From positions 62,001 to 126,000 of IMG/VR virus record IMGVR_UViG_3300029985_000017: DNA of 64,000 nt; one strand, written 5' to 3'. How positions within the stretch are numbered: the first letter of the stretch is position 1; each line of letters opens with the position of its first letter. This document shows, piece after piece, positions 3,740 to 55,999 of this stretch. The translations under genes were made by a program, and so were the position numbers. The DNA comes from a virus. The notes under the pieces are model-generated. The model searched no databases. It was given only the letters and a program-made list of their open reading frames with translations, and had not been told where the DNA came from.

Positions 3740-3768
3740 TTGACTTTTTGATTTTTCTAGCTTATTCT
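3740..3768 (+). promoter_or_regulatory. Sigma70-like promoter for the SbcC-like gene
   Basis: TTGACT (3740-3745), a 17-base spacer, then TATTCT (3763-3768). Seven bases separate the -10 box from ATG 3776, so transcription should begin at or next to the start codon. No Shine-Dalgarno sequence is present, which predicts a leaderless message. Confidence 0.7.
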
Positions 3769-3775
3769 ATATTTA

Positions 3776-5956
3776 ATGCTCAAATTAAAAACCTTAAAAT
3801 TTAAGAATATCGGCAGATTTGTTGAAGAACAAACGATTGATTTAGCCAACTTAGGGTCATTGATTCAAGTAGATGCCCAAAATAATCTTACTGGCGGCTC
3901 TAGCGGTTCTGGAAAATCCACTGTTTTCAATGCTTTAGATTGGCTATTAGGATTATCCGACCTTAGTACTGGAGTTCTTCAATCCAGACTTACCAAAGAA
4001 ACCATCTCTGTAACTGGCGAATTTGATTGGGATGGCCACTCTGTTACCATCCATAGGGCAAAAAAGCTATCTGTTACAGTAGACGGCATAGAAACGGTAG
4101 GTTCATCCAAACTAGCCGAAGAAGAATTGGATAAGATCCTAGGACTCCCAAGGCATCTATTTTCTGTTTTACTCCATCGCAGACAGGGTGAAACTGGATT
4201 TTTTCTTAAGATGACCCCCTCTAAAATGAATGAATTTCTGACAGATTGCCTTGGATTATCCACAGTTAACTCTAAAATTGACTTAATTGATGCTAAGATA
4301 AAGATTTATACCATAGATAGGGCTAAGGCTGAATCTGACCTCCAAAGCGCTCAGGCTGCCTTAGAAGCAACCAAATCGGCTATAGCATCCTTGGGAGAGG
4401 AACCTAAGACGGACGTCACTGAGACGAATCTAACGCTTCTTAAAATGGCCTTTGAAGGCGCTGAAAGCGAACTCTATCGCGAAAAAACCGCCCGTACTTT
4501 AGAAAAGGGTCTCTTAGAGCAAAAAAAACCCATTCTAACCGCCATCTCCTTTGATTTTACTCAACTTAATTCTTTAAACGATAGTGTGTCAGAAGTAAAA
4601 GCACAAATAAATGCCGAGTTGGATAAAGAACGGGCAAGACAAACGGAAGTTCGCAATTTAGCAGCGGCCCTTAAACTAGAGGTCAATAACAAAATTTCCA
4701 CCTTGAGACTAGAGCATCAGAAGAAAATTGCTGAAGCCAAGACTTCTATATTCAATTTAAGCGGTATGGTTTCAACTGGTAGGACTGCCAAAGAAAAAGC
4801 CATCCAGCTAGCATCAAGAATCAAAACTTTGAGGGATGGAAGCTGCCACGTCTGCTTGCAGTCTTGGAAAACCGATGAAAATAAGACCGAAGAAGAAAAG
4901 CTTCTCAAAGAACTTGCTGAATGCAAGATAGATATGGACGCATCGGTTTTTGCTGCAAACGAACTAGAAGAAATGAAAGCTGCCCTTATAACACTAAACG
5001 ATCAAGTAAATGCTGAAATAGCTGCATTGAATGACCAACTAGCCTCAGAAACTGCGATTTTAACGGAACAAGCAAAACCACAAGTATATCCAGTACTAAT
5101 AGAGCTTAACACTAAACTTAGAGAAGTTACCAAGCTAAGGTTGGAAGAAAAAGAAAAAGAAGACCTTCACAATAAAGAACAAAATTTAAAGAATCAGGCC
5201 TTGATGCAAGTTTTTTACGAAGAGCAGAAGGCTTTAAATGAAAAACACCAAACTGAGCTTGCCGGTATGGTTAAATATATAGCTGAGGCTAAGGCTAAAT
5301 ATGAACAAGCGGAACAAGCCCTTAAGGCCCACAAAGAGTCCTTGGCACGTTATAGTTCTACTCTAGGGTCTTTGAAAGCTAAAGAAACTGATATCAACCA
5401 AAAAGTAGTCCATATGAACCAAAAGTTGGCTACGATAACTGAAGACTTAGAGTTAGCCGAAGAAGCCAAAAAGTGCCTAAAGTCTTACCTTTCTTGTTCT
5501 TTTGATGGCTCATTGATTTCTATCTCTGAAAGCGCAACTAGGATACTCAGATCGGTTCCTACCATGGCAAATGCGACGATTAGGCTTGAAGGGACTAAGG
5601 AAACAGCAAAGGGCGCTATTAAAGATGAAGTTACTGCTTGTTTGGATAATGATGGAGAATTAGACATTCCTATTAAGAGTCTTTCTGGTGGGGAACGTTC
5701 CGCTGTAGACTTGGCCATAGACTTAGCAGTAATTGAATTAATTGAAGACAGAACTAATAAAGGTATAGATTTATTGTTATTAGATGAGATTTTTAATGGT
5801 TTTGACAGTTTGGGCATAGAACATGCATTAGAAATGCTAAAGACTTTCGGTGCCAACAAAAAACTATTGCTCGTAGAACACGATGGTATCGCTAAGGAAT
5901 ACATTCAAGACAGGATCACCGTTATTCGCGATGGCGAAACAAGTTATTTAAAATAA
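3776..5956 (+). CDS. sbcC: SbcC/Rad50-like ATPase (T4 gp46 type)
   Basis: A 726-residue SMC-like ATPase. It has a Walker A motif (GSSGSGKST, 41-49), a long coiled coil broken by a zinc hook CHVC (357-360), an ABC signature LSGGE (636-640) and a Walker B LLLLDE (666-671). These are the defining parts of SbcC/Rad50, which dimerises through the hook, clamps DNA ends and drives the SbcD/Mre11 nuclease encoded at 549-1520. The coiled-coil arms are short compared with bacterial SbcC (usually about 1,000 residues) and nearer the phage gp46 size. It has its own promoter directly upstream with no ribosome binding site, so it is probably translated from a leaderless mRNA. Confidence 0.93.
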   Translation: MLKLKTLKFKNIGRFVEEQTIDLANLGSLIQVDAQNNLTGGSSGSGKSTVFNALDWLLGLSDLSTGVLQSRLTKETISVTGEFDWDGHSVTIHRAKKLSVTVDGIETVGSSKLAEEELDKILGLPRHLFSVLLHRRQGETGFFLKMTPSKMNEFLTDCLGLSTVNSKIDLIDAKIKIYTIDRAKAESDLQSAQAALEATKSAIASLGEEPKTDVTETNLTLLKMAFEGAESELYREKTARTLEKGLLEQKKPILTAISFDFTQLNSLNDSVSEVKAQINAELDKERARQTEVRNLAAALKLEVNNKISTLRLEHQKKIAEAKTSIFNLSGMVSTGRTAKEKAIQLASRIKTLRDGSCHVCLQSWKTDENKTEEEKLLKELAECKIDMDASVFAANELEEMKAALITLNDQVNAEIAALNDQLASETAILTEQAKPQVYPVLIELNTKLREVTKLRLEEKEKEDLHNKEQNLKNQALMQVFYEEQKALNEKHQTELAGMVKYIAEAKAKYEQAEQALKAHKESLARYSSTLGSLKAKETDINQKVVHMNQKLATITEDLELAEEAKKCLKSYLSCSFDGSLISISESATRILRSVPTMANATIRLEGTKETAKGAIKDEVTACLDNDGELDIPIKSLSGGERSAVDLAIDLAVIELIEDRTNKGIDLLLLDEIFNGFDSLGIEHALEMLKTFGANKKLLLVEHDGIAKEYIQDRITVIRDGETSYLK

Positions 5957-5959
5957 ACC

Positions 5960-5988
5960 TTGACTTTTGAGTAAGTATAGTTTAGTGT
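5960..5988 (+). promoter_or_regulatory. Sigma70-like promoter upstream of the gene at 6006
   Basis: TTGACT (5960-5965), a 17-base spacer and TAGTGT (5983-5988). The expected transcription start near 5995 leaves a leader of about 11 bases that contains a Shine-Dalgarno-like AGAGG before ATG 6006. This promoter therefore differs from the leaderless ones. Confidence 0.6.
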
Positions 5989-6005
5989 ATTAAACAGAGG
6001 CCATA

Positions 6006-6278
6006 ATGACAACCTACTTGTTGGACAAAAAAGATCTTTATATGATTGTCTGTAATGCTAAGAAAAATATGTTAGATTTTAATTTGCCTATTTATGTTAC
6101 TCAAAATCAAGTAGAACAAGGAGAAATACCTTCGTTAGCTATGCTAGAATCTGTATTAATGACTTTAAATTCTAAAGGTTTGTTAAATCGTATAGTTAAA
6201 GTTGACTATACGGATCCGGCCTGTGAGCATGATCCTGAATCGCCTCTTGAAGATGAAGAACCTGTAAAGAAAAAATAA
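6006..6278 (+). CDS. Hypothetical protein, 90 aa
   Basis: First gene after its own promoter, with a Shine-Dalgarno-like AGAGG 8 bases before the ATG. The N-terminal two-thirds look folded and helical (YLLDKKDLYMIV...LAMLESVLMTLNSKGLLNRI). The C-terminal tail is acidic and then basic (DPESPLEDEEPVKKK). No family is recognised. It heads a cluster that continues into the RuvC-like gene. Confidence 0.65.
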   Translation: MTTYLLDKKDLYMIVCNAKKNMLDFNLPIYVTQNQVEQGEIPSLAMLESVLMTLNSKGLLNRIVKVDYTDPACEHDPESPLEDEEPVKKK

Positions 6279-6288
6279 GGAGAATATA

Positions 6289-6591
6289 ATGGGAAGACCT
6301 AAGAAAGAACCACTCTCAGAACTAGAAAAGCTCGCTAAGAAGATTGGCCCCGATTTTAAGGAAGTTCTAGCTGAACTAGAAGCCGCTGATGCAGAAGGAC
6401 TCAACAAACGTATTGCTCAAGCAGCTCAAGCTATTAGCGATACGTCTGCAGAGCTTAAAGCCAATCCAGAATATGAGCAAATTGTAAATGATAAGAAACT
6501 CCTTGAATCAGGACTTAGGGAAGTTAAACAACGACAAAATGCTATTATTAAGGTATGTTTGAGCTTGCGAAAGGATCGCGGGGAAGCTTAA
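6289..6591 (+). CDS. Hypothetical helical protein, 100 aa
   Basis: Starts at ATG 6289 with a strong AGGAG site. The N-terminus GRPKKEP resembles an AT-hook core (GRP flanked by basic residues), which could contact the minor groove of AT-rich DNA. The rest is predicted helical or coiled coil, rich in Ala, Glu and Lys. It ends in a TAATG junction with the RuvC-like gene. A DNA-associated accessory role is a guess from the AT-hook-like start and the neighbour. Confidence 0.6.
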   Translation: MGRPKKEPLSELEKLAKKIGPDFKEVLAELEAADAEGLNKRIAQAAQAISDTSAELKANPEYEQIVNDKKLLESGLREVKQRQNAIIKVCLSLRKDRGEA

Positions 6592-8178: not shown

Positions 8179-8226
8179 TAAAAGTTCTCATAACGAGAAG
8201 TAACTGAAACCAAAAGGAGAAATAGA

Positions 8227-8841: not shown

Positions 8842-8848
8842 TAGATAT

Positions 8849-10052: not shown

Positions 10053-10060
10053 GGATATTT

Positions 10061-10447: not shown

Positions 10448-10670
10448 GGAAGAAGTTAAAAAGAAGATCATGGAGGATCCCGATTTTATTAAATCCCATA
10501 AGTATGGGAACTCACTAAGTAAATTTCTTTCCAATAACAATGGCGATCTTGAAAATGCTACTATAGCTAGATTGTTAATGATTTCTGAAGATGAAGTTGA
10601 AAATATTTATAAAGAAGTTGTTGACTTTATCAAAAATAAGATGCAAGATGGAAAAGATGAAAGTAATTGA
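10440..10670 (+). CDS. Hypothetical protein, about 76 aa
   Basis: A short helical protein (NREEVKKKIMEDPDFIKSHK onward) with a possible small helix-turn-helix near the middle (NATIARLLMISEDEVENIYK). The start is uncertain. GTG 10440 gives an 8-base overlap with the upstream gene. ATG 10380 would give a 68-base overlap, and ATG 10470 a slightly shorter product. I chose 10440 because short overlaps are the rule here. No function can be assigned. Confidence 0.5.
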   Translation: MNREEVKKKIMEDPDFIKSHKYGNSLSKFLSNNNGDLENATIARLLMISEDEVENIYKEVVDFIKNKMQDGKDESN

Positions 10671-15100: not shown

Positions 15101-15696
15101 AAACCTATGAAGATGCGGTTGAAATTAAAAAGTTTCAAGACAAAAAAGTTATAGCTGAAAAAGAAGGTAAAAAAGTTAGAAATTTACAGCCTAAAGAAGG
15201 CAAGATTCCAGAAAAATACATAGATCTTCCCCCTCTTGTGGATGCTGCAATGAAGAAAAATACTCTTCCTACAATGCCTATCGACCTCTATTCTCTAGGA
15301 GCTAAGTATAGTAAGGTCAGAGATCTTAATTCTACGAAGCCTAAAATGGTAGACGAGATTTGGAATAAGTCAGTTTTCTTAATCGAAGGCAATGCAGTAG
15401 AACGTTTAGATAAGACAGATTTCACTACAGAAGAAAAAGACTTATACGTAGCCGCCACTGGTTACATTATTGAAGCCAAAGAGTTCTCATATTCTAAGGG
15501 AACTAAACGAGCTTTAAAATTGATTGTTGCTTGTGACAATTATATTAGCGAAAAAGTTTTATGGCCTAATTATAAAACCCAAGAGCTTATTTATGATAAA
15601 AATATTAAAAAGGGTTCTATATGCACGTTATTTATGAGAAAAAGGGCTGGAGAAAAAGGCCCTTTAAATCTTACCCAAATGGTTCTTGAAACGTAA
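12148..15696 (+). CDS. dnaE: C-family DNA polymerase (PolIII alpha subunit-like)
   Basis: A 1,182-residue replicative polymerase. It has an N-terminal PHP domain (SPHTHTESF, His6 and His8; LGLEFYF), then the C-family palm. The palm carries TSPGRGSAGGSLFCYLLG, the catalytic triplet PDIDTD (Asp475, Asp477, Asp479) and the third acidic residue in KYDFLTINQLLD (Asp641). Downstream are SKHACAMVLSD, the DEEAELLRENMAKKK helix and a C-terminal OB-like region. Length and domain order match bacterial DnaE. Phages usually carry A- or B-family enzymes, so a full-length C-family copy is unusual. No clamp or clamp loader is in the window. Confidence 0.93.
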   Translation: MYISPHTHTESFLTSSTLSSLIDRAKELGRTHFSCTDLGYLHSSMKAYTLAKKAKLIPILGLEFYFKDPVCPITSGTPADRCKYFSATIYAENQEAYQAICKMVSRTDFSTIEIREEKQNLFTWADLELLSKYKTNLVLGGVHDIVGKAYLASDANVGLKLFEKLNNLFFNRLYIAMICEPWSKKFAKVVEVKYKDFTTDSLLDTDLVSTDKARKIKASDLIERSGHLLIKSKVSNGVFFEVDREIDSVKLHTGFLPLSCDVTLKINKFLMLLGKRYNVPILASDYAYYSHKEDKIVQRVVLEGKDSIHAQQHMKTEEEVLSYLQNTMGLSSSEANTVIDNNIKWAALFDNFELKYEWRLASTEGQNPLKKAMEIINRNGRMKWDNPIYVNRLKTELEVIAKNGVKDLTPYFLPIVEVLDRYKKEGQITSPGRGSAGGSLFCYLLGITNIDPIRYGLPFSRFFSTTRIQMNKLPDIDTDLPQKETLLGKDGHSGFLYERWGDCAGHISTRNTVRLRSAIKDVHRYLDGTVSREIDRFTSGLPQPPQGISDLHFVFGYENEEGEHIPGILETNEDLQKYTKDYPKHWSIVAKSMGITRAFSKHACAMVLSDVPIRETMPLKEGYITHYEHKETEAVGLIKYDFLTINQLLDIQVCLELINKKNGDNFEPGYFTHNGEKIYIWDLPEEADVYKSIWDGNTVTLFQINSSGMAKLTQEILPDRLEYLASILALERPGPKDYIDPVTGRNMVEEYVMRRNGQSQPDIPELAEILPESYGTLIYQEDLGKVAKQLAGFSDEEAELLRENMAKKKMVELTKIKPSFIQGAQTKVSREVAEKIWEQMVTFGRYGFSIIHSYEYAMITYACMFLRHNYKLEWWAAVVTNADQAEITGKFWPHVKDLIAPPDINISTDKMEVDYSASKIRSKLGIITGIGDKTIDPIVENRPYKDLQDFVNKDVAGPSLAHRLIHVGVLDSLFKPNMSLEEKLKTYEDAVEIKKFQDKKVIAEKEGKKVRNLQPKEGKIPEKYIDLPPLVDAAMKKNTLPTMPIDLYSLGAKYSKVRDLNSTKPKMVDEIWNKSVFLIEGNAVERLDKTDFTTEEKDLYVAATGYIIEAKEFSYSKGTKRALKLIVACDNYISEKVLWPNYKTQELIYDKNIKKGSICTLFMRKRAGEKGPLNLTQMVLET

Positions 15697-15704
15697 GAAA
15701 AAGC

Positions 15705-15733
15705 TTGACTTTTTAAAACAGATGTGTCATTAT
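15705..15733 (+). promoter_or_regulatory. Sigma70-like promoter for the subtilisin-like gene
   Basis: TTGACT (15705-15710), a 17-base spacer, then CATTAT (15728-15733). Six bases separate the -10 box from ATG 15740, and no ribosome binding site is present, so the message should be leaderless. This also argues against the longer in-frame start at 15686, which lies upstream of the promoter. Confidence 0.6.
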
Positions 15734-15739
15734 CTACAT

Positions 15740-16444
15740 ATGAAGTTTTTAATCTATTCTTTGCTTCTTCTAACCACTGTCTCTATAGCCAAAGAAAGTA
15801 CAAAACCAATTAAGATAGCTATCGTAGATACGGGAATAAACGTTTTAGATCCGCGTTTTAAAGAGCATGTTTGCGCCACAGGACACAAAGACTTTACAGG
15901 TGAAGGATTGTTAGACACCGTAGGTCATGGAACCTTTGTAGCTGGCTTAATTCAAAAGTATGCAGGTAAAGGTACTTATTGTTTTTTAATATATAAGTAT
16001 TACTCTGAACATAATACTGGAATTCAAAATCTTCAAAATGAGATTAAAGCCTTCCAAGAAGCAGCAAAAAATGGTGCTGCGGTGGTGAATTTCTCAGGTG
16101 GTGGTGCTGAACATAATAAATATGAGTATTTAACCATTAAAAATAATCCCAGGATGCTTTTTGTAGTTGCAGCTGGAAATGAAGGCCAAAATGTAGATCT
16201 TCCTGGAAAAGAATATTACCCAGCTTCATATAAGCTAGAGAACATAATTCCTTTGGGAAGTATTGATAGAAATGGCACCAAAGTTACTAGTTCTAATTGG
16301 GGCAGTAGAATTACAGATTTTGAAATTGGAGACCAAGTGGTATCCACTCTGCCCGATGGAGATACGGGAACGATGTCTGGAACTAGTTTTGCTACAGCAA
16401 TAAGAACTGGTAAAATAGTAAGGGATATGTTATATGCAAGATAA
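15740..16444 (+). CDS. Secreted subtilisin-like serine protease (S8)
   Basis: A 234-residue S8 protease with the full triad: IAIVDTGIN (Asp30), GHGTFVAGL (His63) and MSGTSFATA (Ser216), plus the oxyanion Asn in VVAAGNEG. The start at ATG 15740 reveals a clean signal peptide (MKFLIYSLLLLTTVSIAKES), so the enzyme is exported. There is almost no propeptide between signal and catalytic domain. Subtilases are rare in phage genomes; possible roles are host-envelope remodelling or superinfection defence, neither shown. It overlaps the next gene by 11 bases. Confidence 0.88.
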   Translation: MKFLIYSLLLLTTVSIAKESTKPIKIAIVDTGINVLDPRFKEHVCATGHKDFTGEGLLDTVGHGTFVAGLIQKYAGKGTYCFLIYKYYSEHNTGIQNLQNEIKAFQEAAKNGAAVVNFSGGGAEHNKYEYLTIKNNPRMLFVVAAGNEGQNVDLPGKEYYPASYKLENIIPLGSIDRNGTKVTSSNWGSRITDFEIGDQVVSTLPDGDTGTMSGTSFATAIRTGKIVRDMLYAR

Positions 16445-16676: not shown

Positions 16677-16678
16677 GT

Positions 16679-17053: not shown

Positions 17054-17054
17054 A

Positions 17055-19034: not shown

Positions 19035-19253
19035 ATGCTTGGAATTTATTTAGATCTACAAATAGGATTGAAAACTATTAGTTTTGAGATTCACCCATTG
19101 TCTTGGACTTTAAAACCCTATAAAGCTGGTTATACTGACCCTGATTTTGATGTTAATATGGATTATAATATTTTTTATAGTTTTTTGTGTTTTAGTATAA
19201 GATTTAAGAAAAGAATGGATTTGTCACAGTTTTTGATTGACAAATCAAAATAG
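19035..19253 (+). CDS. Hypothetical protein, 72 aa
   Basis: A short protein starting at ATG 19035 with an AGAGG site just after the T-run of the structured RNA. It is rich in aromatic residues (DYNIFYSFLCFSIRF) and could be a small beta protein or a membrane-associated one, though there is no long uninterrupted hydrophobic helix. Not recognised. If the RNA upstream is a switch, this is its most direct target. Confidence 0.5.
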   Translation: MLGIYLDLQIGLKTISFEIHPLSWTLKPYKAGYTDPDFDVNMDYNIFYSFLCFSIRFKKRMDLSQFLIDKSK

Positions 19254-19265
19254 ATGGGTTAGACT
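19237..19265 (+). promoter_or_regulatory. Sigma70-like promoter for the gene at 19272
   Basis: TTGACA (19237-19242), a 17-base spacer and TAGACT (19260-19265). Six bases separate it from ATG 19272, and there is no ribosome binding site, so a leaderless transcript is predicted. This operon would contain the recombinase gene. Confidence 0.65.
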
Positions 19266-19271
19266 CTTAAG

Positions 19272-19805
19272 ATGAGCGACGAACTTCAAAAAGATCAAAC
19301 CATAGTTCTTCCACCCTTTGGAAAATCACCACAACTAAGATTAGAAATGGGAGCTATTAGAGAAGCTGAAATTCGATTGATTGAAGCCAAAACCGTTAAT
19401 CCTTCTACCTATCCCGATCTTAGTCACTGCTATAACGAGTCATATCGCGTGCTTAAGACGCATTTGAGTAATATTGGATACCAGATTAATATGGCAGATA
19501 AAGCCTTAGAAGAGGCTAAGGCAGATATTATTTTAGGCAGCTATGCTGAGTTTTTAAAAGATAAGCCAAAGTCCGCAGGAAATGCGGAGCTTAGGAACGC
19601 TTTTCTCATTAGAGATCCCGCTTACAACGCAGCCTTGGACCGCAAAAATCAACTTTTGGCTATCCAATCAAATTTCGAAGGCAAGATTAAGGTTTTGGAA
19701 AATGTAGTTTCGTTTATGAAACAAAAAATGTATTTGATTAGTCGCTCTGGTTTGAGCAATGAAAATCTATATGTAACCAGTGGAAAAGGAAATAAAAATG
19801 GCTAA
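19272..19805 (+). CDS. Hypothetical helical protein next to the recombinase, 177 aa
   Basis: Mostly alpha-helical, charged and cytoplasmic (REAEIRLIEAKTV; YQINMADKALEEAKADIIL; LDRKNQLLAIQSNFEGKIKV). It is co-transcribed with the RecA-like gene, which starts inside its last codons (ATGGCTAA), and follows the ssDNA-binding gene. In T4-type systems a small helical mediator (UvsY) loads the recombinase onto coated ssDNA. Size, helicity and position are compatible with such a mediator, but I see no sequence hallmark of UvsY. Confidence 0.6.
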   Translation: MSDELQKDQTIVLPPFGKSPQLRLEMGAIREAEIRLIEAKTVNPSTYPDLSHCYNESYRVLKTHLSNIGYQINMADKALEEAKADIILGSYAEFLKDKPKSAGNAELRNAFLIRDPAYNAALDRKNQLLAIQSNFEGKIKVLENVVSFMKQKMYLISRSGLSNENLYVTSGKGNKNG

Positions 19806-20847
19806 TAAATGGCTTTCGGATTTGAAGAAACTAGATTCAGCAGTAGATTTTGATTACGATAGTTATGCACCTGAGAACTGCTTTTACACGCCTTCCCCCT
19901 ATCTTAACTGGCTAACTGGTAATAAGGCCAATGGATTCCCCAAGAATAGTAGTATCCTATTCTTTAGCGAACCAAAATCTGGTAAGAGCTTCCTTTGTCT
20001 TTCTATGATTGCCGAGATGCATAAGCGAGATCCTGAAGGTATTGCAGTTTACGTATCCACAGAGCTTCGTGGTCAACTTCAGGCCATTAACTTTCCTGGA
20101 GTTGATCCAGATCGTGTTTTGATCATAGACTCTAATGACCCTGTAGAGATCTTTGATGAGCTTTTAGATCAAAATCTTAAAGCAAAAGTTCAAGATGGCA
20201 TGCCTTTAAGAATGATTATTTTGGACTCTGTAACCGGTATTTTGGGAGTTAAGAGAAAAGCTGCTGAAAGCATTGAACAACATCTTATTGGCGATTCCGC
20301 GTTGACTATCGGCAATGCAATGCAAAACATTGTACCGTGGTGTAAGAGGAACAAGATCATGCTTATTGGTACAGCTCAAATTCGTGCCAATATTGACTCT
20401 AATCCTTATGCTGAAAAGACCAAAATGCAAGCTAGTTTTGCTGTTAAACATGCTTTTGAATACTTCATTAGCGTTAAACGAGCTAATGCTGCTGACGACA
20501 AAAAAGATCTAGAAGGTAAAACCTTTGAAGATGAGATCAAGGATGCTAGGGGAAACAACTTAATCAACGCCCACAAAGTTTATGCCAAAGTTGAGGGTTC
20601 ATCTATTGGTCCTGCAGGTCGTGCAGGTGTGTTCACCATTTCTTATACCCATGGATTAATCAATCAACACGAAGAGACTTTTTTCTTGGGCACCACTACT
20701 GGTGTTATTAAAAAGGAAGGAACCCGTAATTATTTCTTCGACGATAAGAAATGGTCTTCAAAAGGCGATTGCGCCAATGCTATTAAAGATGATCCAAAAT
20801 TGGCTGCCGCTATTCTGGAGGAAGTCCGTAAGTTAGACGATAAATGA
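19798..20847 (+). CDS. RecA/UvsX-like recombinase
   Basis: A 349-residue RecA-fold ATPase. Walker A is SEPKSGKS (57-64). Walker B is RMIILDSVTG (Asp143). An L1/L2-type region follows (IGDSALTIGNAMQNIVPWCK; LIGTAQIRANIDSNP), with a C-terminal extension. Its length and N-terminal region fit phage UvsX-type strand-exchange proteins. It would form filaments on ssDNA coated by the protein encoded at 17879 and act with SbcCD and RuvC in recombination-dependent replication. ATG 19798 (site GGAAA) is preferred to the longer upstream start; it overlaps the previous stop by 8 bases. Confidence 0.88.
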   Translation: MANKWLSDLKKLDSAVDFDYDSYAPENCFYTPSPYLNWLTGNKANGFPKNSSILFFSEPKSGKSFLCLSMIAEMHKRDPEGIAVYVSTELRGQLQAINFPGVDPDRVLIIDSNDPVEIFDELLDQNLKAKVQDGMPLRMIILDSVTGILGVKRKAAESIEQHLIGDSALTIGNAMQNIVPWCKRNKIMLIGTAQIRANIDSNPYAEKTKMQASFAVKHAFEYFISVKRANAADDKKDLEGKTFEDEIKDARGNNLINAHKVYAKVEGSSIGPAGRAGVFTISYTHGLINQHEETFFLGTTTGVIKKEGTRNYFFDDKKWSSKGDCANAIKDDPKLAAAILEEVRKLDDK

Positions 20848-23593: not shown

Positions 23594-23964
23594 CACATGA
23601 ACAAATCCAAGAATTGAATAATTTGAGTATGGCAGTTTTTCGTAGCAAGAGCAAATGGCGTAAGATGGTAGAACAAGGGGTAGCAGAACTTGTGGTGGAA
23701 GATACGACCAGGTTGACATCGGATGGTACTGAAACTACCGTCAAGACTGCTAAAATGCATGTTGGAGCTAAAGGTGGAGAAGTACCCCAATATACTTTGC
23801 AACGGTATACGCCTGAATCTGTTAAGGAATTTATGCTTAAAGTTATATATGAGCGCCAACTATATTTTGATGCCATTAGAAAAGTTAAGGAAAAAGAAGA
23901 AGAAGATCTTAAAAAAGAACTACAAAAACAAGCTGTTGAAGAAGCCTCGGGAACATCAGTTTAA
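23590..23964 (+). CDS. Hypothetical protein, 124 aa, between helicase and primase
   Basis: Starts in an ATGA overlap with the helicase (site GGAG). The middle is beta-rich and the C-terminal third is a Lys/Glu coiled coil (RKVKEKEEEDLKKELQKQAV). It ends just before the primase promoter. Not recognised; a helicase-associated role is suggested only by coupling. Confidence 0.6.
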   Translation: MTHEQIQELNNLSMAVFRSKSKWRKMVEQGVAELVVEDTTRLTSDGTETTVKTAKMHVGAKGGEVPQYTLQRYTPESVKEFMLKVIYERQLYFDAIRKVKEKEEEDLKKELQKQAVEEASGTSV

Positions 23965-23966: not shown

Positions 23967-23995
23967 TTGACTTTTATAAATCCTCGGGATAAGAT
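23967..23995 (+). promoter_or_regulatory. Sigma70-like promoter for the primase gene
   Basis: TTGACT (23967-23972), a 17-base spacer and TAAGAT (23990-23995). The -10 box directly touches the first possible ATG (23996), but the second in-frame ATG (24002) lies 6 bases after it, at the expected transcription start. This favours 24002 as the start codon and a leaderless message. Confidence 0.7.
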
Positions 23996-24001
23996 ATGGG
24001 T

Positions 24002-24871
24002 ATGGAAGATTTAAAAACTTTCTTAAGCCTAATGTTTGATCCCGAGGACACAGTAATAGTCTCAGATTCAAAATTTTCAATGCATGCAGTACCATTGCCC
24101 ATGGTTTTTTCTGGGGAAGTAACCTTAGTACCTTCCAGTCAGAACATGCAAATTAAAAAGGTTAAATCAGATCAGTTGATCTTTGCTGCCCTAAATCCTA
24201 CTAAAGGTTTTAGAAAAGATAGTAATTGTTATAAACTAAGAAATTTCTTGGTTGAAATGGATAATTACGAAAGAAACGCTCAAATTCAATATATCAAAGA
24301 GACAGGTTTACCATATTCTGGTATGGTCTGGAGCGGTTCAAAATCAGTTCATACTTTAGTATCATTAGAAGAAGATACACTAAGCGAAAAAGAATACCGC
24401 ATACTATATAAATGGATGCTTAATATCGTAGCCCTATCAGACCAAGCTTTGGGCAATCCCTCTAGGAGCATAAGGTTACCTGGAGCTATTAGAGCTGAAA
24501 CCGGTAATATACAGGAGCTTATAGAGCTTAAAACCAGGATTAAATTAGAAGACTTCATGGTTTGGCTTAATCGCTATCCAGATTTAAGACCAAAAGTAAA
24601 GGAACATAAAAAACACTTGACAAATGGTTTTGACTATGAGAAGCTAAGTCTATGGGCCACAGCTCAATTTAAGAATGGAATAGATTTTACTAACGGTAGA
24701 AATAGGGCTTTTTTTAATCTTTCTTGTGATTTGTATAGTAGCGGCCTTACAGAGGATGAAGCGGTAGAAGTTTTGAACCAATATTTTATAGAAGAGCATG
24801 ATTTTAGAGAAAAAGAATTTTTAAAGACTATATCTCAAGCATATAGTTTTATGGCAAATAAAGGCAAATGA
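24002..24871 (+). CDS. Archaeo-eukaryotic-type primase (AEP/PrimPol-like)
   Basis: A 289-residue protein with the AEP motif pattern. Motif I is LVEMDN (Glu85, Asp87). Motif II is SGSKSVHTLVSL (His117). Motif III is the LSDQA acidic residue (Asp147), followed by NPSRSIRLPGAIR (152-164), a run seen in RepA/PrimPol-like primases. The last 90 residues are helical, like a PriCT domain. Such enzymes make RNA or DNA primers, and would pair with the DnaB-like helicase at 22439. The start is placed at ATG 24002 rather than 23996 from the promoter position. It overlaps the next gene by 4 bases. Confidence 0.7.
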   Translation: MEDLKTFLSLMFDPEDTVIVSDSKFSMHAVPLPMVFSGEVTLVPSSQNMQIKKVKSDQLIFAALNPTKGFRKDSNCYKLRNFLVEMDNYERNAQIQYIKETGLPYSGMVWSGSKSVHTLVSLEEDTLSEKEYRILYKWMLNIVALSDQALGNPSRSIRLPGAIRAETGNIQELIELKTRIKLEDFMVWLNRYPDLRPKVKEHKKHLTNGFDYEKLSLWATAQFKNGIDFTNGRNRAFFNLSCDLYSSGLTEDEAVEVLNQYFIEEHDFREKEFLKTISQAYSFMANKGK

Positions 24872-25952: not shown

Positions 25953-26215
25953 TGTCAGATATAGAAGATAAGCATCAAAAAATAGCTGCTAGAGTAAAGA
26001 ACCTAGCTAGAAGCCACGACGCACACTTGACGCCCATGGGAGATGTTTTATGCAATTTATTCTCCTTTGTTCTAATGGATTTGTATAGTTTTGCTGAAAC
26101 GTTGCCGGAATCCCATAAAACTAACCTGTTAGAGTTAATTAAGAGTAAAGAAGATTTTCCAAGAAATATTATTGAACTCGGAAACAAAGTTAAGAAAAAA
26201 GATAAGGGTGTTTAA
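25952..26215 (+). CDS. Hypothetical protein, 87 aa
   Basis: A small helical protein coupled on both sides (TAATG junctions). A central hydrophobic stretch (DVLCNLFSFVLMDLYSFAET) contains charged residues and is more likely a buried helix than a membrane anchor. Not recognised. Part of the short cassette holding the CYTH and aminotransferase genes. Confidence 0.55.
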   Translation: MSDIEDKHQKIAARVKNLARSHDAHLTPMGDVLCNLFSFVLMDLYSFAETLPESHKTNLLELIKSKEDFPRNIIELGNKVKKKDKGV

Positions 26216-27195
26216 TGAAGCAAGAATTTTTATTGGGGTGGGGTGATCCCATTTGCGTTAGACAAGCTCTTGTAGAAACACTAGACAAGGAAAGCTTTTC
26301 GTTTGCTAAAATTAAACTAGATAAAATGGGATATCCAGATCATTATGGCGCTCCTAGCCTAATTGAGCGGCTAAAAGATTTGGAATTAAGGCAATCTGGA
26401 CATAGACCAAAGCACCTATTTATTACTTGTGGAGCTACTGGCGCATTAAATGCAGCCTTGCACGCTTTAAAAACCATTCATACCGATTGGGTCGTGACCA
26501 ATAAGAGATACTTTCCTATATACCCAACTATTGTTGGGTTAACCGATATGGTCATGATTGACCGAGCAAAAAAAGAAGAACTTTGTAATAAAAGTAACGG
26601 ATGTAAGGAACACAACTTTATAATTTTAACTGATAGTCCAAGTAATCCAGAGGGTATAGTCTATCCCTTTCATAATGTAGATATCTGGGATATGGCATAT
26701 GCATCAAGTACCTATAGTAGGGGTGGCCATGTGCCAGCAAAATATGGGATCGCCTGTGGGAGTCTTTCCAAAACCCTAGGATTGGCTGGACTCAGATTGG
26801 GATGGGTCAGTACTGACGAAGACCTATTGGCAGACAGTTTGGGCAATTATGTAACAGCCACATATGTAGGGTTATCTTCGGCTTCTATGGCCATAGCCGA
26901 ACAAGTTATTTCAGAATTAGATTTCTATCTGTTTGAATCCAAATCTCGAAGTTATCTAGACGACAACAGGGAAGAAATTCAAAAACTTTTGACAAAATTT
27001 GGACAGGGTTTTGTTCCTGTTAATGGTATGTTCGCTATATTAGAATTGGGTAAATTAGAAAGAAAAGCTTTAGAGAAAGCCAATATCAAATGGCAGTCAG
27101 GATCTTCATGGGGAGAAACCGATGATTGGGCCAGATTAAGTTTAGGCCAGACCAGGGAGATCACTAGGGCGGCAGTTAAAGCGGTCTTAAAATGA
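26215..27195 (+). CDS. PLP-dependent aminotransferase, class I/II fold
   Basis: A 326-residue fold-type I PLP enzyme. Visible are the cofactor loop TCGATGALNAALHAL, the substrate-site SPSNPEG (Asn144), the PLP-binding DMAY (Asp159, Tyr162), the Schiff-base lysine SLSKTLGLAGLRLGW (Lys186) and a C-terminal ARLSLGQT supplying the carboxylate-binding Arg. All catalytic residues are present, so it is probably active. At 326 residues it is shorter than the usual 380-420. Aminotransferases are rare in phages. It could supply an amino compound for metabolism or nucleotide/cell-wall modification, but the substrate is unknown. Confidence 0.82.
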   Translation: MKQEFLLGWGDPICVRQALVETLDKESFSFAKIKLDKMGYPDHYGAPSLIERLKDLELRQSGHRPKHLFITCGATGALNAALHALKTIHTDWVVTNKRYFPIYPTIVGLTDMVMIDRAKKEELCNKSNGCKEHNFIILTDSPSNPEGIVYPFHNVDIWDMAYASSTYSRGGHVPAKYGIACGSLSKTLGLAGLRLGWVSTDEDLLADSLGNYVTATYVGLSSASMAIAEQVISELDFYLFESKSRSYLDDNREEIQKLLTKFGQGFVPVNGMFAILELGKLERKALEKANIKWQSGSSWGETDDWARLSLGQTREITRAAVKAVLK

Positions 27196-30462: not shown

Positions 30463-31524
30463 TTACTGGTATGCCGCCACAGACCAGGCTAATCTATAAT
30501 TACTTGTTTCTAAAGGCATATTCCATGTAGCGGTAAATGTGCCATTTGTTTTTGCGGTTATAGAAATTGGTTGAAACATAGGTAAGCTATCAACTGTATT
30601 GACTAACTCTGCCAAAACTACATATAAACTGCTAGAAAATGCGATAGGAAAGGTAACCGTAGCAGAAGTATCTCCCATATTAAGAAGACTTTCTCCAACC
30701 ATTTCACCAGAAACACCGGGTCCAATCATGTAATCGAGCGAATAATTAGAAGAATCAAGAGGCATATTCCAAGTAAGGGTGCAACCAGTAGTCGTTTTAT
30801 TTGTAATAGTAATAGGTTGAAATTCTGGATCTGGATCAATAGTATTGACTAATTGCCCTAATATCACATAGTTAGCACTACTTTGTGGCGTAGGAAATGT
30901 TACTGTAACGCTGGTAGTGCCAATAGTAAGGGCTACTTCTTGTGCTACCCCTCCACCAGATCCGCCGCCACCACCTGAGCCTTCGAATTGATAAATATTT
31001 TGCTGAGTAATATTTTGGATAACTCCACCAATATTTTGCAAGGTAACATATCCAAAAGGCTGAGTTGCTGCATGTGGCTGTGGTACTAAGGCATTGGCTA
31101 AAACCGCATTAGGGGTTCCTACAGTGACATTTAGGTCATTAGACTCATCTATGGCTAATAGTACCTGTACGTAGTCTCCTGAAGGCAATGTGAGAGGGAA
31201 AGACCCACCTGTAGAGGTAGTTATATTGCCTCCAGAGGTAGAAGGGAAGGTTACGGTCCCACCAGAAAATATAGGAAGAGCCGTTCCAAGAAAAGAGGTT
31301 GATTTATTGCGACCAGATACAGAATTAGGTACTACACTAGGTCCGATATCGATTGTAAGAGATGGAGTTGAAGTAGCATCAATTTGAAAAGGAGGGGTAA
31401 GATCTGAGTTAATAGAGGCCATTAATACGTCAAGAGTTTGAGAACCTACCCAAGGGAATAGCTCTTGTAGAATTGCGCGATTAACTACCTGCCTATCGTC
31501 TAATGGTCTATAATCAATACTCAT
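30463..31524 (-). CDS. Tail fibre protein with two lectin-like repeats
   Basis: A 353-residue virion protein. The N-terminal 190 residues end in a Gly/Ser hinge (GSGGGGGSGGG). Two tandem copies of an 80-residue beta module follow: VTVTFPTPQSSANYVILGQL ... TLTWNMPLDSSNYSLDY, then TVTFPIAFSSSLYVVLAELV ... TATWNMPLETSNYRLAW. A third copy forms the C-terminus of the adjacent 1,408-residue fibre. The pattern (strand, F-x-x-x-F/S, Y-x-V, W-x-x-P, ending in W) resembles H-type-lectin/gp53-like fibre heads that bind receptors. A late-type motif sits right before its ATG. Confidence 0.6.
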   Translation of the reverse strand: MSIDYRPLDDRQVVNRAILQELFPWVGSQTLDVLMASINSDLTPPFQIDATSTPSLTIDIGPSVVPNSVSGRNKSTSFLGTALPIFSGGTVTFPSTSGGNITTSTGGSFPLTLPSGDYVQVLLAIDESNDLNVTVGTPNAVLANALVPQPHAATQPFGYVTLQNIGGVIQNITQQNIYQFEGSGGGGGSGGGVAQEVALTIGTTSVTVTFPTPQSSANYVILGQLVNTIDPDPEFQPITITNKTTTGCTLTWNMPLDSSNYSLDYMIGPGVSGEMVGESLLNMGDTSATVTFPIAFSSSLYVVLAELVNTVDSLPMFQPISITAKTNGTFTATWNMPLETSNYRLAWSVAAYQ

Positions 31525-31530
31525 ATATCT

Positions 31531-31540
31531 CTTATATCAT
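31531..31540 (-). promoter_or_regulatory. Late-type -10 motif before the fibre gene at 31524
   Basis: ATGATATAAG on the - strand. TATAAG ends 6 bases before ATG 31524, so transcription would start at or next to the start codon. No -35 box is seen. It lies just inside and after the end of the 1,408-residue fibre gene. Confidence 0.55.
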
Positions 31541-42561: not shown

Positions 42562-42607
42562 GTACTACCCTCTGGAATGGACCTTAAAGTAAAGATTCCT
42601 ACCTTTT

Positions 42608-42617: not shown

Positions 42618-42640
42618 TTAACCCTATTTATCTTAATAAC

Positions 42641-42670
42641 TTGACACGGAATCTTTACCTATGATAGTAT
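42641..42670 (+). promoter_or_regulatory. Sigma70-like promoter for the + strand island gene at 42677
   Basis: TTGACA (42641-42646), an 18-base spacer and TAGTAT (42665-42670), with 6 bases before ATG 42677 and no strong ribosome binding site. A leaderless message is predicted. Confidence 0.65.
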
Positions 42671-42676
42671 ATAGGC

Positions 42677-43081
42677 ATGAGGGACATCATTTTGGGTAAG
42701 TCTAGAACGAATCGTCATGGTTTGACCAAAGAACAAGAGCTTGTTAAAGAAAATCAAGGACTTAAACGCGAAAATAGTAGGCTCCGGAAGCTTTTAGCTA
42801 GGGCAGATCTAAATCGTTATGAAAATGTTAAGGAAGCTGTAGAAGATCATGAACGAAATCTTGGACTTCCTACCACTCAGGATCTATTGGAATCATTGAA
42901 GAAAGAGTGGAAATGCCGAGAATGTACTGAAGGCTATCTAGAAATCATCGTTTATACGAAAATAGGAGATCCTTGGTACTTTAGAAAATGCTCAGATTTT
43001 GGTTGCAAAAATCGTACCAAGAGCCAAAAATATGACTCCAAATCCGTTCGTGGGATCATTAAGAAATCAACTGAAGAATAA
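42677..43081 (+). CDS. Coiled-coil and zinc-ribbon protein, 134 aa
   Basis: The N-terminal half is a basic helix and coiled coil (KEQELVKENQGLKRENSRLR). The C-terminal half has four cysteines in two pairs (WKCRECTEGYLEI and FRKCSDFGCKNR), a probable zinc ribbon. Ribbon plus leucine-type coiled coil suggests a nucleic-acid-binding regulator, but no family is recognised. It is the first gene of a + strand island inside the - strand tail region. Confidence 0.6.
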   Translation: MRDIILGKSRTNRHGLTKEQELVKENQGLKRENSRLRKLLARADLNRYENVKEAVEDHERNLGLPTTQDLLESLKKEWKCRECTEGYLEIIVYTKIGDPWYFRKCSDFGCKNRTKSQKYDSKSVRGIIKKSTEE

Positions 43082-43086
43082 ATAGC

Positions 43087-43115
43087 TTGACTTTTCGAAT
43101 ATTCCTTGTTAGACT
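43087..43115 (+). promoter_or_regulatory. Sigma70-like promoter for the transglycosylase gene
   Basis: TTGACT (43087-43092), a 17-base spacer and TAGACT (43110-43115). The predicted start near 43122 gives a leader of about 13 bases containing AGGAGA before ATG 43136, so this one is not leaderless. Confidence 0.7.
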
Positions 43116-43135
43116 GATAGCAGGAGAATATAAGA

Positions 43136-43582
43136 ATGACTTATTTATCTATTATAACTTCTGCCGCAAAAGCAGCTAAAGTCAGTGCTGTCCTTCTCTA
43201 TGCTATTTGTGCCCACGAAAGTCGTGATTTCACCTTAGACTATGCGCTGTATGACAATGGATCTCCAAGCTACGGCGTGTGTCAAGTTAAGGAAAATACA
43301 GCTAGGATGCTAGGATTCAAGGGCGATGCGATTGAATTGAGAAATGCCGTGGTGTCTACAAAATATGCCGCTCTTTATCTTAAGTATGAACAAGATAGGT
43401 ATGGAGAAAATGATTGGGTTGTTTTGACCGCTAGCTATAATGCGGGTAGCTATATTGAATCCGCAAAAAAGCCCGGTTTTCCAAAGAACTTAAAGTACGT
43501 TAAGCTAGTTCAAGCTAAGTTGCCAGATGAATACAAAGACCGTCTAAATGGAACAAACAAAGGGGGAGTCCCATGGAAGTAA
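43136..43582 (+). CDS. Lytic transglycosylase (SLT/goose-lysozyme fold), probable endolysin
   Basis: A 148-residue single-domain protein. It has the catalytic Glu in AICAHESRDF (Glu28), the SLT motif SPSYGVCQVKENTARMLGF and the end motif LTASYNAGSY. These enzymes cut peptidoglycan between MurNAc and GlcNAc. There is no signal peptide or cell-wall-binding domain, so it would need a holin or another release route; no clear holin is next to it. It overlaps the following gene by 10 bases. It is the best endolysin candidate in the window. Confidence 0.85.
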   Translation: MTYLSIITSAAKAAKVSAVLLYAICAHESRDFTLDYALYDNGSPSYGVCQVKENTARMLGFKGDAIELRNAVVSTKYAALYLKYEQDRYGENDWVVLTASYNAGSYIESAKKPGFPKNLKYVKLVQAKLPDEYKDRLNGTNKGGVPWK

Positions 43583-44940: not shown

Positions 44941-44941
44941 T

Positions 44942-46870: not shown

Positions 46871-46874
46871 ATAA

Positions 46875-52361: not shown

Positions 52362-52380
52362 TTTATTTTATACCTTTATA

Positions 52381-52392
52381 CTTTTATATCAC
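52381..52392 (-). promoter_or_regulatory. Late-type promoter for the baseplate-J gene
   Basis: GTGATATAAAAG on the - strand, then a short leader with AAAGG before ATG 52361. No -35-like box is visible. It fits the RTGATATAR motif. Confidence 0.6.
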
Positions 52393-52402
52393 AACTCTAT
52401 AT

Positions 52403-55054
52403 TTATGCTGCTAACTCAAAATTAACAGGGAAAACTCCGGTTTGGCCTGCAATTTGCACGCCCACGCTAATGGTTAAAGTCGGCGGAGTTGCAGCAATTT
52501 GCAAACCTGTAACACCATCAAATCTAGGGTCAGCCTGAATTTGCATATTGATTTGTTTAGCTAAATCTTGTATATTAAGATCGGCGACACTGGTTCCAGG
52601 AATAACTCCTAGACCATATTGTGGCTCCAACATAAAACTATTAATCGTAGTAGTAAATAAAATTCTAAGAGCCTGTACAATATTGGTCATTCCATAGGAC
52701 AATAAAAAATTACCGTATTGGTCTATAATAATATCACCATTATCATCTAATAGCCAATCTACGCCTGAAATATCTGCCAAAGGATCTCCGCTTAAGCTAA
52801 CTAAAGGAGGTAATGGAATATTAACTTGTCCTTGTAATTGAGCTACTGGTAAATCGCTTGGAATATAAATTTTTTGCATTGCATTTACTGTATTAGGAAG
52901 ATAGGCCTGTATATATGCTTTGTTCGCTGTAGTAAAATTGCCAAGATTTGGTTCGCCATCTAAAGTGATAAGATACCCACCATTATTTGGCAATGGAGTA
53001 ATATTAGTAATACTTCTTGATTGTTGGATTTGTCCTGCAGCCATAAAAGTAACGGTTTGGCCTAAATATAAATCCACATTACTTGTAACAACGGCCTGTC
53101 TACCAATTGCATTGGTCACTAACGGCAATTGGAAGCCCAGGTAATCTAAGTATGGTTCTTCAAGGCTATTCAAAGTGGCTATTTCTAACCAACGATTAGG
53201 ATCTCCTAAGTAACGGGCTGCGATACCTTCTATGGTAGTATTAAAAGGTACGGGCACTATAATTTTACTAGTAGGAACATCGAATGGTATTCCTGATTGG
53301 GTGGCCAATCCAGCCACATAATCTAAAGAACTTTGAATGTTGAGGTCGGTAATTTGCGTGGTGGCAGTTAAAATGTTTACAGATTGAATAAACTCATATA
53401 AAGTATCTAAAATCAAAAATTGAGGTATACTCATTGGCTGATTGCGTACTGGAGGGGGTGTTAAATTGTAAAGTTCATTGTATAGCGGGGCTCCTGCACC
53501 AAAATATCCTTCTAGTTGGACCGCTAGAGATAAAATTGAGTTCGCATTATTTTTAAGTTGTTGTACAGTCAAAGTAGTATTGTTGAGAATGTTGTTCAGC
53601 TTATTTTGTTGAGCAGTATTTAAAACTAACTGACTTGTAGGGACTTGGTCCATTAAATCTACGAAGGCGTTAGGGTTATTAAAAATATTTGCAGCAGGAT
53701 TGGTCTGTTGCGCATTAGCTACACTATTACCCAGTTGGCCATTAGATGCGGCGGTTTGACTAATACCATTTCTAGCAGTTTGCGCCGCAGCTATAGCCGC
53801 GACAGCTGCAACTCCAGCAGTGGTTGTAACAGCGGTAGCTATAGCATTAGAATTTATAGAGGCATAATTTTGTATTGCAGAACTAAAATCTTTTTGAATA
53901 GACGCGGGAAGATCCGAAGCTGCGGTCCCAACTCCCATTAGGTCTTTAACGAATAAAGCTGTTTGACTAAGAACATTAAAGACGCCATTTACATCTGAAG
54001 TAACCGCACCAATTACGGCGATTGCAGAGCTACAAGTTAAGCGCGCTTCTGTTATACCATTCAAAATTCTTTGCAGAATTCCTGGCGTGATTTTATAAAC
54101 ATTTGCTGGAACAACTTTGCTGGATTCGCTTAGAGTAATCCTCCTCCAAGCCTTAAATTGCAACTGATACATTATTTCCATCGGCTTTTGTGCCGATTGC
54201 TGCCAAACATACTGCATTGGAGTTACGACATAGGAGGTATTTTGTTTTGGAATATCAAAAACTAAACGCCATCCGGCATTATCGGGATTTTTCTTAGCTT
54301 CAGCATACTGCTCAATAAACTGCTGAAGATACAAAGCCTGATAGTAGCCAGTACTAGTTGGACCAAAAGTAGCGCCAGCGCTAGTTGGACCAATAGTATT
54401 GGGCTTTTGATTTGGATTATTAGTTGTAAAAGTATTAACAGTGGTGGCTACCTGATTGATTAGACCCGTAATAGCCGTTAAAGTGCCCCCAAATACTGAT
54501 TGTAAGATGGAGGGGCTTCCTGGAGGCTTTGAGACGCTCTCTCTATAAGGCCAAACACCCATAGATCCTGAGGCGTTAATTAATTTAAACTTAATCCCAT
54601 TATGTTCTTCTAAAACACCCCTTAAAGTAGCCGAAGTATTAATAGCATATTGATCAGTAATACTAAGCTGTTGAGGTGTAATGGGAAGATTAAATTCCCA
54701 TTTAGTCGTCGTAAGAGCATTGAAAGTTAAAGTGGGCGTACCCTGTTGAACGCCCGTCACAGTGCCTTTATAATCTCCAAAACCGCTTACAATACTGTTA
54801 TTATTGGTCACATCTATTACAACTAATCTGTAAGGAAACAGCTGGTTCCAGCGAGAAGCGTCTAAAGCTATAGGAGGATAAAAGGCACTTAGATAGTTCG
54901 CTCCCGCTTGTGGATCCCAAGGAGTGACTAAAGGTGTATTGGCGATCGAAGCATTGCCCGAATTAAGTCCAAAGGCTGCCGCAGCTGCATTACTAAGGCC
55001 GCTGATAGCACTTCCAATGCCTAAATTACCGGTACCGTTAGAAAATACATCCAT
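52403..55054 (-). CDS. Baseplate protein: LysM-like domain fused to gp25-like wedge domain
   Basis: An 883-residue protein. The N-terminal 360 residues contain LVVIDVTNN and WEFNLPITPQQLSITDQYAI, as in tail/baseplate proteins that bind the tube. The middle is helical. A LysM-like stretch is at about residues 600-650 (PFNTTIEGIAARYLGDPNRW). The last 120 residues match gp25/lysozyme-like wedge proteins (MTNIVQALRILFTTTINSFM; EPQYGLGVIPGTS). In most phages LysM-type and gp25 proteins are separate genes, so this looks like a fusion. Confidence 0.75.
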   Translation of the reverse strand: MDVFSNGTGNLGIGSAISGLSNAAAAAFGLNSGNASIANTPLVTPWDPQAGANYLSAFYPPIALDASRWNQLFPYRLVVIDVTNNNSIVSGFGDYKGTVTGVQQGTPTLTFNALTTTKWEFNLPITPQQLSITDQYAINTSATLRGVLEEHNGIKFKLINASGSMGVWPYRESVSKPPGSPSILQSVFGGTLTAITGLINQVATTVNTFTTNNPNQKPNTIGPTSAGATFGPTSTGYYQALYLQQFIEQYAEAKKNPDNAGWRLVFDIPKQNTSYVVTPMQYVWQQSAQKPMEIMYQLQFKAWRRITLSESSKVVPANVYKITPGILQRILNGITEARLTCSSAIAVIGAVTSDVNGVFNVLSQTALFVKDLMGVGTAASDLPASIQKDFSSAIQNYASINSNAIATAVTTTAGVAAVAAIAAAQTARNGISQTAASNGQLGNSVANAQQTNPAANIFNNPNAFVDLMDQVPTSQLVLNTAQQNKLNNILNNTTLTVQQLKNNANSILSLAVQLEGYFGAGAPLYNELYNLTPPPVRNQPMSIPQFLILDTLYEFIQSVNILTATTQITDLNIQSSLDYVAGLATQSGIPFDVPTSKIIVPVPFNTTIEGIAARYLGDPNRWLEIATLNSLEEPYLDYLGFQLPLVTNAIGRQAVVTSNVDLYLGQTVTFMAAGQIQQSRSITNITPLPNNGGYLITLDGEPNLGNFTTANKAYIQAYLPNTVNAMQKIYIPSDLPVAQLQGQVNIPLPPLVSLSGDPLADISGVDWLLDDNGDIIIDQYGNFLLSYGMTNIVQALRILFTTTINSFMLEPQYGLGVIPGTSVADLNIQDLAKQINMQIQADPRFDGVTGLQIAATPPTLTISVGVQIAGQTGVFPVNFELAA

Positions 55055-55093
55055 TGAGTTAAAGATTACAGTTACAAGTATATCTTATTTATA

Positions 55094-55121
55094 AAGATAA
55101 GTCCCTGATTTTATTAGTCAA
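55094..55121 (-). promoter_or_regulatory. Possible sigma70-like promoter upstream of the LysM+gp25 gene
   Basis: On the - strand TTGACT (55121-55116), a 16-base spacer and TATCTT (55099-55094), about 40 bases before ATG 55054. A partial late-type motif (AAGATATAC) lies just downstream. The spacer is one base short, so confidence is low. Confidence 0.35.
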
Positions 55122-55136
55122 TATAGATATCTATGA

Positions 55137-55964
55137 TTATCTTACTTCTATTCCTAGTTCTTTTAACTTATTTCTATCCCAAAGCTCGGAGTTTGGGTGT
55201 ATAGATTTAAACCAATCCCATTTAATTTGTGCATCTGGGCGCATCAAACCCTTTATTTCTACCCATAAATTACAGTCCGGAAGAAATAGGTCTGGTCTGT
55301 AGCTAGTTGACTTCCCAGTAGGATTACATATAACGTCAGTGGGTATTTCAAAAGTTTTTGGTTGCCACTCAAAATTAATTTTATGGAAATTTAGATAATC
55401 TACAGTTTTCGCCTCATAAGATCCTTGACAAACGAGTTCTTCATTTGTTTTCCAGTGGAACTTAACTGTTGATTTATTGGATGATTTAGCCACTTTTAAA
55501 GAAATGCCTGTGTTTTTGTTGGGGTTACAGAAACCGTATCTTTCTATGCAAGTTTCCCTTATTTTCTCTTTAACTTCTTCGCTTTGAAAAGGATTTTCTA
55601 CTCCCCGCTTATTCAGACATGTTTTTTTCTTTTTTTCTTTTATAAGTTCATTTTGACCTGGATAATCTACCCCATAATTTTTATTTGAAGTTATTTTTTT
55701 CTTATTCTTGATTTCTGAAGATTGAGAAACGTTTTCGACACCATACACCTTTAATGTAGTTTGTTTTCTCTTTAAAATAGCTCTAGTAGGATGGCTGCCA
55801 CCCTTCAACACACTTTTCACGACAGCTTCCCAGCTTCCAAAAATATTGTCCATAAAAATAGCAGATCTACGACTAGAAATATAACTTTCTTTCATTATTG
55901 TTACGGTATCGCCATGAACTAATTTTAGTCTAGTTTCTACCTGTTTTATTGTAAGCTTTCTCAT
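55137..55964 (-). CDS. Probable homing endonuclease with PD-(D/E)XK-type nuclease end
   Basis: A 275-residue protein. The N-terminal half holds repeated units of the form K-x-Y-G-V-(E/D)-x-P/V-x-Q-S/N (VYGVENVSQSSEIKNKKK; NYGVDYPGQNELIKEKKK; RGVENPFQSEEVKEKIRE; RYGFCNPNKN), as in DNA-binding arrays of phage homing nucleases. The C-terminal part has a nuclease-like core YRPDLFLPDCNLWVEIKG (Asp, then E-x-K). Its promoter, an isolated sigma70-like one, and its location between baseplate and lipoprotein genes fit a mobile, self-contained gene. Exact subfamily is uncertain. Confidence 0.7.
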   Translation of the reverse strand: MRKLTIKQVETRLKLVHGDTVTIMKESYISSRRSAIFMDNIFGSWEAVVKSVLKGGSHPTRAILKRKQTTLKVYGVENVSQSSEIKNKKKITSNKNYGVDYPGQNELIKEKKKKTCLNKRGVENPFQSEEVKEKIRETCIERYGFCNPNKNTGISLKVAKSSNKSTVKFHWKTNEELVCQGSYEAKTVDYLNFHKINFEWQPKTFEIPTDVICNPTGKSTSYRPDLFLPDCNLWVEIKGLMRPDAQIKWDWFKSIHPNSELWDRNKLKELGIEVR

Positions 55965-55971
55965 AATCTAT

Positions 55972-55999
55972 AGTTTACACAAATGGATAGATTTGTCAA
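55972..55999 (-). promoter_or_regulatory. Sigma70-like promoter for the homing endonuclease
   Basis: On the - strand TTGACA (55999-55994), a 16-base spacer and TAAACT (55977-55972). Seven bases precede ATG 55964 and there is no ribosome binding site, so the message is predicted to be leaderless. Confidence 0.6.

Follow-up and report, generated by a model that had tools for sequence, protein, structure and literature searches.

Promoters spaced for predicted leaderless mRNAs in a family of uncultured phages

Several genes of an uncultured phage are preceded by promoters whose -10 box ends only six or seven bases ahead of the start codon, and these promoters are very probably set for leaderless mRNA made by a sigma70-type RNA polymerase. 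Transcription from the A of the start codon and direct initiation by ribosomes are predicted from the spacing, the absence of a Shine-Dalgarno (SD) sequence and the ATG bias. The leaderless mRNAs proposed in an earlier, sequence-only reading of this DNA are thus supported by a distance peak at 6/7, by SD absence, by the ATG bias and by recurrence in eight related phages.

Promoters close to the start codon

The window, i.e., the whole stretch of 64 kb analyzed here, covers positions 62001-126000 of a viral record (G000) that is 163,229 bases long; positions refer to the window unless the record is named. The sequence-only reading had listed six TTGACT or TTGACA promoters with a spacer of 16-18 bases and 6-7 bases to the ATG. 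All six are present, as established by direct reading of the sequence, and no SD lies between the -10 box and the ATG at any of them:

3740..3778, + strand: SbcC-like gene 3776-5956, TTGACT-N17-TATTCT-N7-ATG
15705..15742, + strand: subtilase gene 15740-16444, TTGACT-N17-CATTAT-N6-ATG
19237..19274, + strand: 177-aa gene 19272-19805, TTGACA-N17-TAGACT-N6-ATG
23967..24004, + strand: primase-like gene 24002-24871, TTGACT-N17-TAAGAT-N6-ATG
42641..42679, + strand: 134-aa gene 42677-43081 of unknown product, TTGACA-N18-TAGTAT-N6-ATG
55962..55999, - strand: DUF7487/homing-endonuclease-type gene 55137-55964, TTGACA-N16-TAAACT-N7-ATG

Two further genes of the window, absent from that list, have the same geometry but belong to another promoter form, the extended -10 box (T)ATGATATA (TGATATA type), which ends 6-8 bases ahead of the ATG:

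56047..56066, + strand: extended -10 TGATATAAA-N7-ATG, gene 56064-56627, divergent from the 55964 gene
31522..31539, - strand: extended -10 TGATATAAG-N6-ATG, tail-fibre-like gene 30463-31524

The window also holds a seventh formal match to the TTGACW form and two internal contrasts in which the promoter stands farther from an SD-led start:

10621..10659, + strand: RNase H start 10657, TTGACT-N17-CAAGAT-N7-ATG, probably a chance match
5960..6008, + strand: TTGACT-N17-TAGTGT, followed by 17 bases with an SD (GAGG) to ATG 6006
43087..43138, + strand: TTGACT-N17-TAGACT, followed by 20 bases with AGGAG to ATG 43136

The RNase H start codon at 10657 is correct by orthology; the promoter match is probably due to chance because most of the orthologous RNase H genes overlap the preceding gene and have no recognizable promoter. 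Elsewhere in the phage SD sites are common, as had been claimed: 55% of the called starts carry an SD core of at least 4 nt, with genes called by codon usage and starts by a simple caller.

Profile matches bore out the gene identities named earlier. The SbcC-like gene matches phrog_77 (1.7e-48), the gene at 15740 is a subtilase-type protease gene (PF00082, 2.3e-21), whose product has a hydrophobic signal-like stretch at its N-terminus, and the primase-like gene matches the DNA primase family phrog_2597 (1.1e-14). The gene at 19272 lies directly upstream of a UvsX-like recombinase (19780-20847; phrog_97, 1.7e-32), and gene 55137-55964 matches PF24308 (2.4e-25). The subtilase with its signal-like N-terminus sits directly behind the DnaE gene and occupies the same place in most relatives. 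The phage has two DUF7487/homing-endonuclease-type genes (window 55137-55964, - strand; record 56121-57239, - strand), both with leaderless-type promoters. The half of the window that holds the replication genes also contains a class I/II aminotransferase-like gene (26215-27195).

Outside the window, further TTGACW-type sites were found on the - strand at record positions 23595, 57239, 145640 and 155822, together with a weaker one at 128456. The 573-aa product of the gene at record 23595 (- strand) matches endonuclease VII-like and Mom-like DNA-modification proteins. The extended -10 form precedes five more genes of the record:

Record 45638: terminase
Record 48517: portal
Record 60680: sigma-like gene
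Record 26655: extended -10 form
Record 10240, - strand: extended -10 form

Taking both forms together, leaderless-type starts account for 20/220 called genes of G000 (about 9%, deduplicated). The sigma-like gene (record 60680-61735; window position -1320) is homologous to a putative sigma factor of Myxococcus phage Mx1 (31% identity), and its match to phrog_351 is weak; it is preceded by TGATATAAT-N6-ATG, and a TGATATA box lies upstream of most of its orthologues.

Distance to the start codon in shuffled sequence, relatives and control phages

A whole-genome count of such boxes with their distance to ATG, compared with shuffled sequence, had been proposed as a check, and it gave a clear excess. 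We counted the pattern TTGACW-N16-18-YANNNT-N6-7-ATG against 200 dinucleotide-preserving shuffles: the window has 7 matches, compared to a shuffle mean of 0.375 (maximum 2), and the whole record has 14, compared to 0.76 (maximum 4). By -10-to-ATG distance, the matches in the window number 4 at six bases and 3 at seven, with 0-2 at each other distance up to 25.

The search was then widened to a set of nine genomes, comprising G000 and eight relatives at 50-57% identity taken from the ten IMG/VR loci returned by a search with the DnaE-type polymerase; they represent an uncultured phage family of ~165 kb, in which the relatives are partly related to each other. Among 144 strict TTGACW-N16-18-TANNNT boxes in the nine genomes, the first ATG falls at distance 6 in 20 and at distance 7 in 6, i.e., 26 boxes at 6-7 where shuffles of the same genomes give 2.0, at about 1 box per distance. 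A second cluster of 26 boxes lies at distance 16-20, and few boxes fall at 0-5 or 8-15.

These counts make it exceedingly improbable that the promoters are chance matches in AT-rich DNA, an explanation that is refuted for the set and not for individual sites, the match at 10657 being one that looks like chance. It could draw on a generic sigma70 scan without spacing constraint, which gave no excess in the first 20 kb (50 compared to 53.8 in shuffles); the signal lies in the strong -35 box combined with the exact distance to the ATG, and the generic scan was dropped as too loose a test. Two other counts were also set aside. When the distance of extended -10 boxes was taken to any ATG, no more than 37 compared to 20 fell at 6-7, so that a tighter motif at called starts was needed. 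Counting TAnnnT by position across the full set of called starts diluted the signal, since this set includes SD-led genes, coupled genes and starts that are uncertain.

When the strict boxes of the family were assigned to called genes, 23 starts lay at distance 5-8 and 22 at 14-22. An SD is present at 20/22 of the more distant starts, while at none of the 23 close ones does an SD follow the -10 box. An SD-like word occurs in 4/23 of the latter, always within the -35/-10 region, and would thus lie upstream of any transcript; the contrast between the two groups is significant with these four words counted (Fisher's exact P=7e-7) and without them (7e-11). At distance 6 the start codon is ATG in 23 cases, GTG in 2 and TTG or CTG in none, in a family tally that, like that of the tighter extended -10 motif, counts some sites twice. 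This bias agrees with the preference for AUG in leaderless initiation described in a review (PMC9031893). Furthermore, a T stands at position -1 in 37/59 leaderless-type genes compared to 224/598 SD genes, an excess that fits the pyrimidine(-1)-A(+1) expectation for transcription start sites.

The same code was run on T4, K, lambda, SPO1, Felix O1, SPbeta and Mx1. None of the 84 start-assigned promoters of these controls is at distance 5-8, compared to 23/58 in the family (P=5e-11) and 9/22 in G000 alone (P=1.5e-7). With both promoter forms included and sites deduplicated, leaderless-type genes number 59/1,389 in the family and 1/1,269 in the controls. The strict pattern gives no start-assigned site in lambda. 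The cI mRNA of lambda is leaderless and starts at the AUG, and it is missed since its promoter has no TTGACW box, so the pattern counts are lower bounds. Mx1 is the nearest named relative (DnaE 33%, MCP 52%, portal 43%, TerL 31% and RecA 38% identity) and, unlike this family, has its 23 start-assigned TTGACW promoters all at 14-45 bases from the ATG and none at 5-8, so that the trait is not general among Mx1-like phages.

The short distance might also reflect genome compaction pushing promoters near genes, without any meaning for translation. Gaps are indeed small at several sites (e.g., 31 bases before 23996), and at 19272 the promoter reaches into the end of the preceding gene. Compaction, however, predicts distances spread over 0-12, whereas the observed distances cluster at 6-7 and are scarce at 0-5 and 8-13, and it leaves the empty 5-8 interval of all seven control phages unaccounted for; we consider it very unlikely.

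Conservation of the layout in orthologues

The subtilase gene gives the broadest case of conservation. Six of its seven orthologues (35-47% identity) retain TTGACW, a spacer of 16-17 and 6-7 bases to the ATG, although the surrounding letters differ, and the orthologous proteins begin at the promoter-proximal Met, equivalent to 15740, with signal-like sequences. This conservation suggests that the leaderless mode has been selected and not merely tolerated.

The other five sites are less conserved. The layout of the SbcC promoter is kept in 1/8 orthologues (G003), and that of the primase and 19272 promoters in none. The orthologue of 42677 in G003 has TTGATT-N17-TATAGT-N7-ATG, with a weaker -35, and the remaining ones use TTG with an SD; for the 55964 gene no orthologue was found among the eight relatives. 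Since most of the six are not conserved, a given site could be of recent origin or lack activity. The sequence-only reading had proposed that leaderless translation would affect core functions. Evolutionarily this claim is weak, as only the subtilase retains the layout broadly among the six.

For the extended -10 form, the box at 56064 is common to the orthologues in G001, G003 and G004, and it is kept in two orthologues at record 26655 and in two at the portal gene. The sigma-like gene and TerL are of leaderless type in some relatives and leadered or coupled in others. Across all genes, co-occurrence of the layout in orthologues amounts to 42 deduplicated pairs compared to a mean of 6.0 and a maximum of 16 in 2,000 permutations; 21 of the 42 come from the subtilase gene alone, and the relatives are not fully independent.

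Orthologues of the SbcC, 19272 and primase genes mostly stand directly behind upstream genes, with stop/start overlap or an SD and without a promoter. This arrangement would be expected if the promoters were real but secondary and translation proceeded mainly from longer upstream transcripts, through coupling or SD-independent scanning on AT-rich, unstructured RNA. Such an explanation leaves the exact 6-7 distance, the ATG bias and the conserved subtilase layout unexplained, and it fits poorly with the subtilase promoter itself, which lies behind the DnaE stop (15696), with the start codon 43 bases past that stop and no SD. We regard it as improbable, less so than compaction, and favor promoters set for leaderless mRNA.

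Proposed mechanism and known leaderless systems

At sigma70 promoters transcription starts seven positions after the -10 box, so that a -10-to-ATG distance of 6 places +1 on the A of the ATG. We propose that a sigma70-type RNA polymerase, acting at TTGACW/TAnnnT or TGATATA promoters, would make the A of the ATG the first base of the mRNA, and that ribosomes would begin translation right at this 5'-terminal AUG, as they do with lambda cI; the true +1 could differ from that A by a few bases in either direction. At other genes these phages place the same promoter 10-14 bases farther from the start codon and add an SD, so that one promoter type would give two modes of translation initiation, set by its distance to the ATG. 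It is conceivable, albeit rather unlikely, that this distance acts as an evolutionary and physiological switch, with orthologues moving between states (sigma-like, portal, TerL) and the leaderless set favored when infection alters the 70S ribosome or the initiation factor pool.

The proposal predicts the start codon at 15740 over that at 15686, and at 24002 over 23996, an alternative in-frame ATG of the primase-like gene immediately after the -10 box. It would also provide a matched set of leaderless and SD-led genes for studying what leads ribosomes to one mode or the other, in a phage group whose mixture of both under one promoter type was recognized from sequence alone.

As with cI of lambda, and with cI and cro of PY54, whose leaderless mRNAs had their 5' ends mapped by RACE (PMC4488713), these are phage genes with mRNA from the AUG, here predicted. 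Those are single regulatory genes of temperate phages, whereas the genes in the present family include replication, nuclease, protease, portal, terminase and sigma-like genes. Phage phiYS40 of Thermus thermophilus has many leaderless mRNAs, and most of its middle and late transcripts are without leader (PMC3594737). There leaderlessness is reported on experimental grounds and holds generally for middle and late genes; here it is predicted, is mixed with SD-led genes and concerns a different lineage. For comparison with the phiYS40 strategy, in which leaderless genes dominate whole temporal classes, G000 has 20/220 leaderless-type genes by sequence and an SD core at 55% of its starts. An IF3-like gene was sought in these phages and not found.

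Among cellular genes, leaderless genes of Deinococcus have a -10 motif 6-7 bp upstream of the ORF and no SD (PMC12340547), and a survey of 953 genomes describes TA-led leaderless genes in bacteria (PMC3160421). The phage genes share with these Deinococcus-Thermus and TA-led genes the TAnnnT 6-7 bp upstream of the ORF and the lack of an SD; moreover, AUG is preferred and the arrangement is commoner than in shuffles, as in -10-adjacent genes. They differ in that the cellular genes make up as much as a third of a genome, compared to about 9% of one phage's genes, and in that the phage sites often have a near-consensus TTGACW -35. As far as the papers found show, the kind of mRNA is known, while the lineage, the mixed use of leaderless and SD-led genes and the conserved subtilase case are new; a literature search for leaderless genes in myxobacterial phages returned nothing relevant.

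A search for the host with the capsid protein matched only two MAG contigs, both co-binned phage contigs, and no host was assigned. The MAG containing L118 has 6 matches at distance 6, compared to 6 over six other distances, a hint only, as its order is without a clear trend.

Other features of the record may be mentioned. A region of ~5 kb (record 154471-159532) has low coding density and many TTGAC copies near 156.6-156.9 kb. The 8-base motif AATCTTWA has 16 of its 46 copies in the intergenic 8% of the G000 record, for example upstream of the - strand genes at window 42561, 55054 and 63477, and it occurs in G001, G002 and G004 as well. It often stands 4-6 or 19-21 bases ahead of a start codon, in several cases that of a large structural-type gene, and is possibly a late promoter element.
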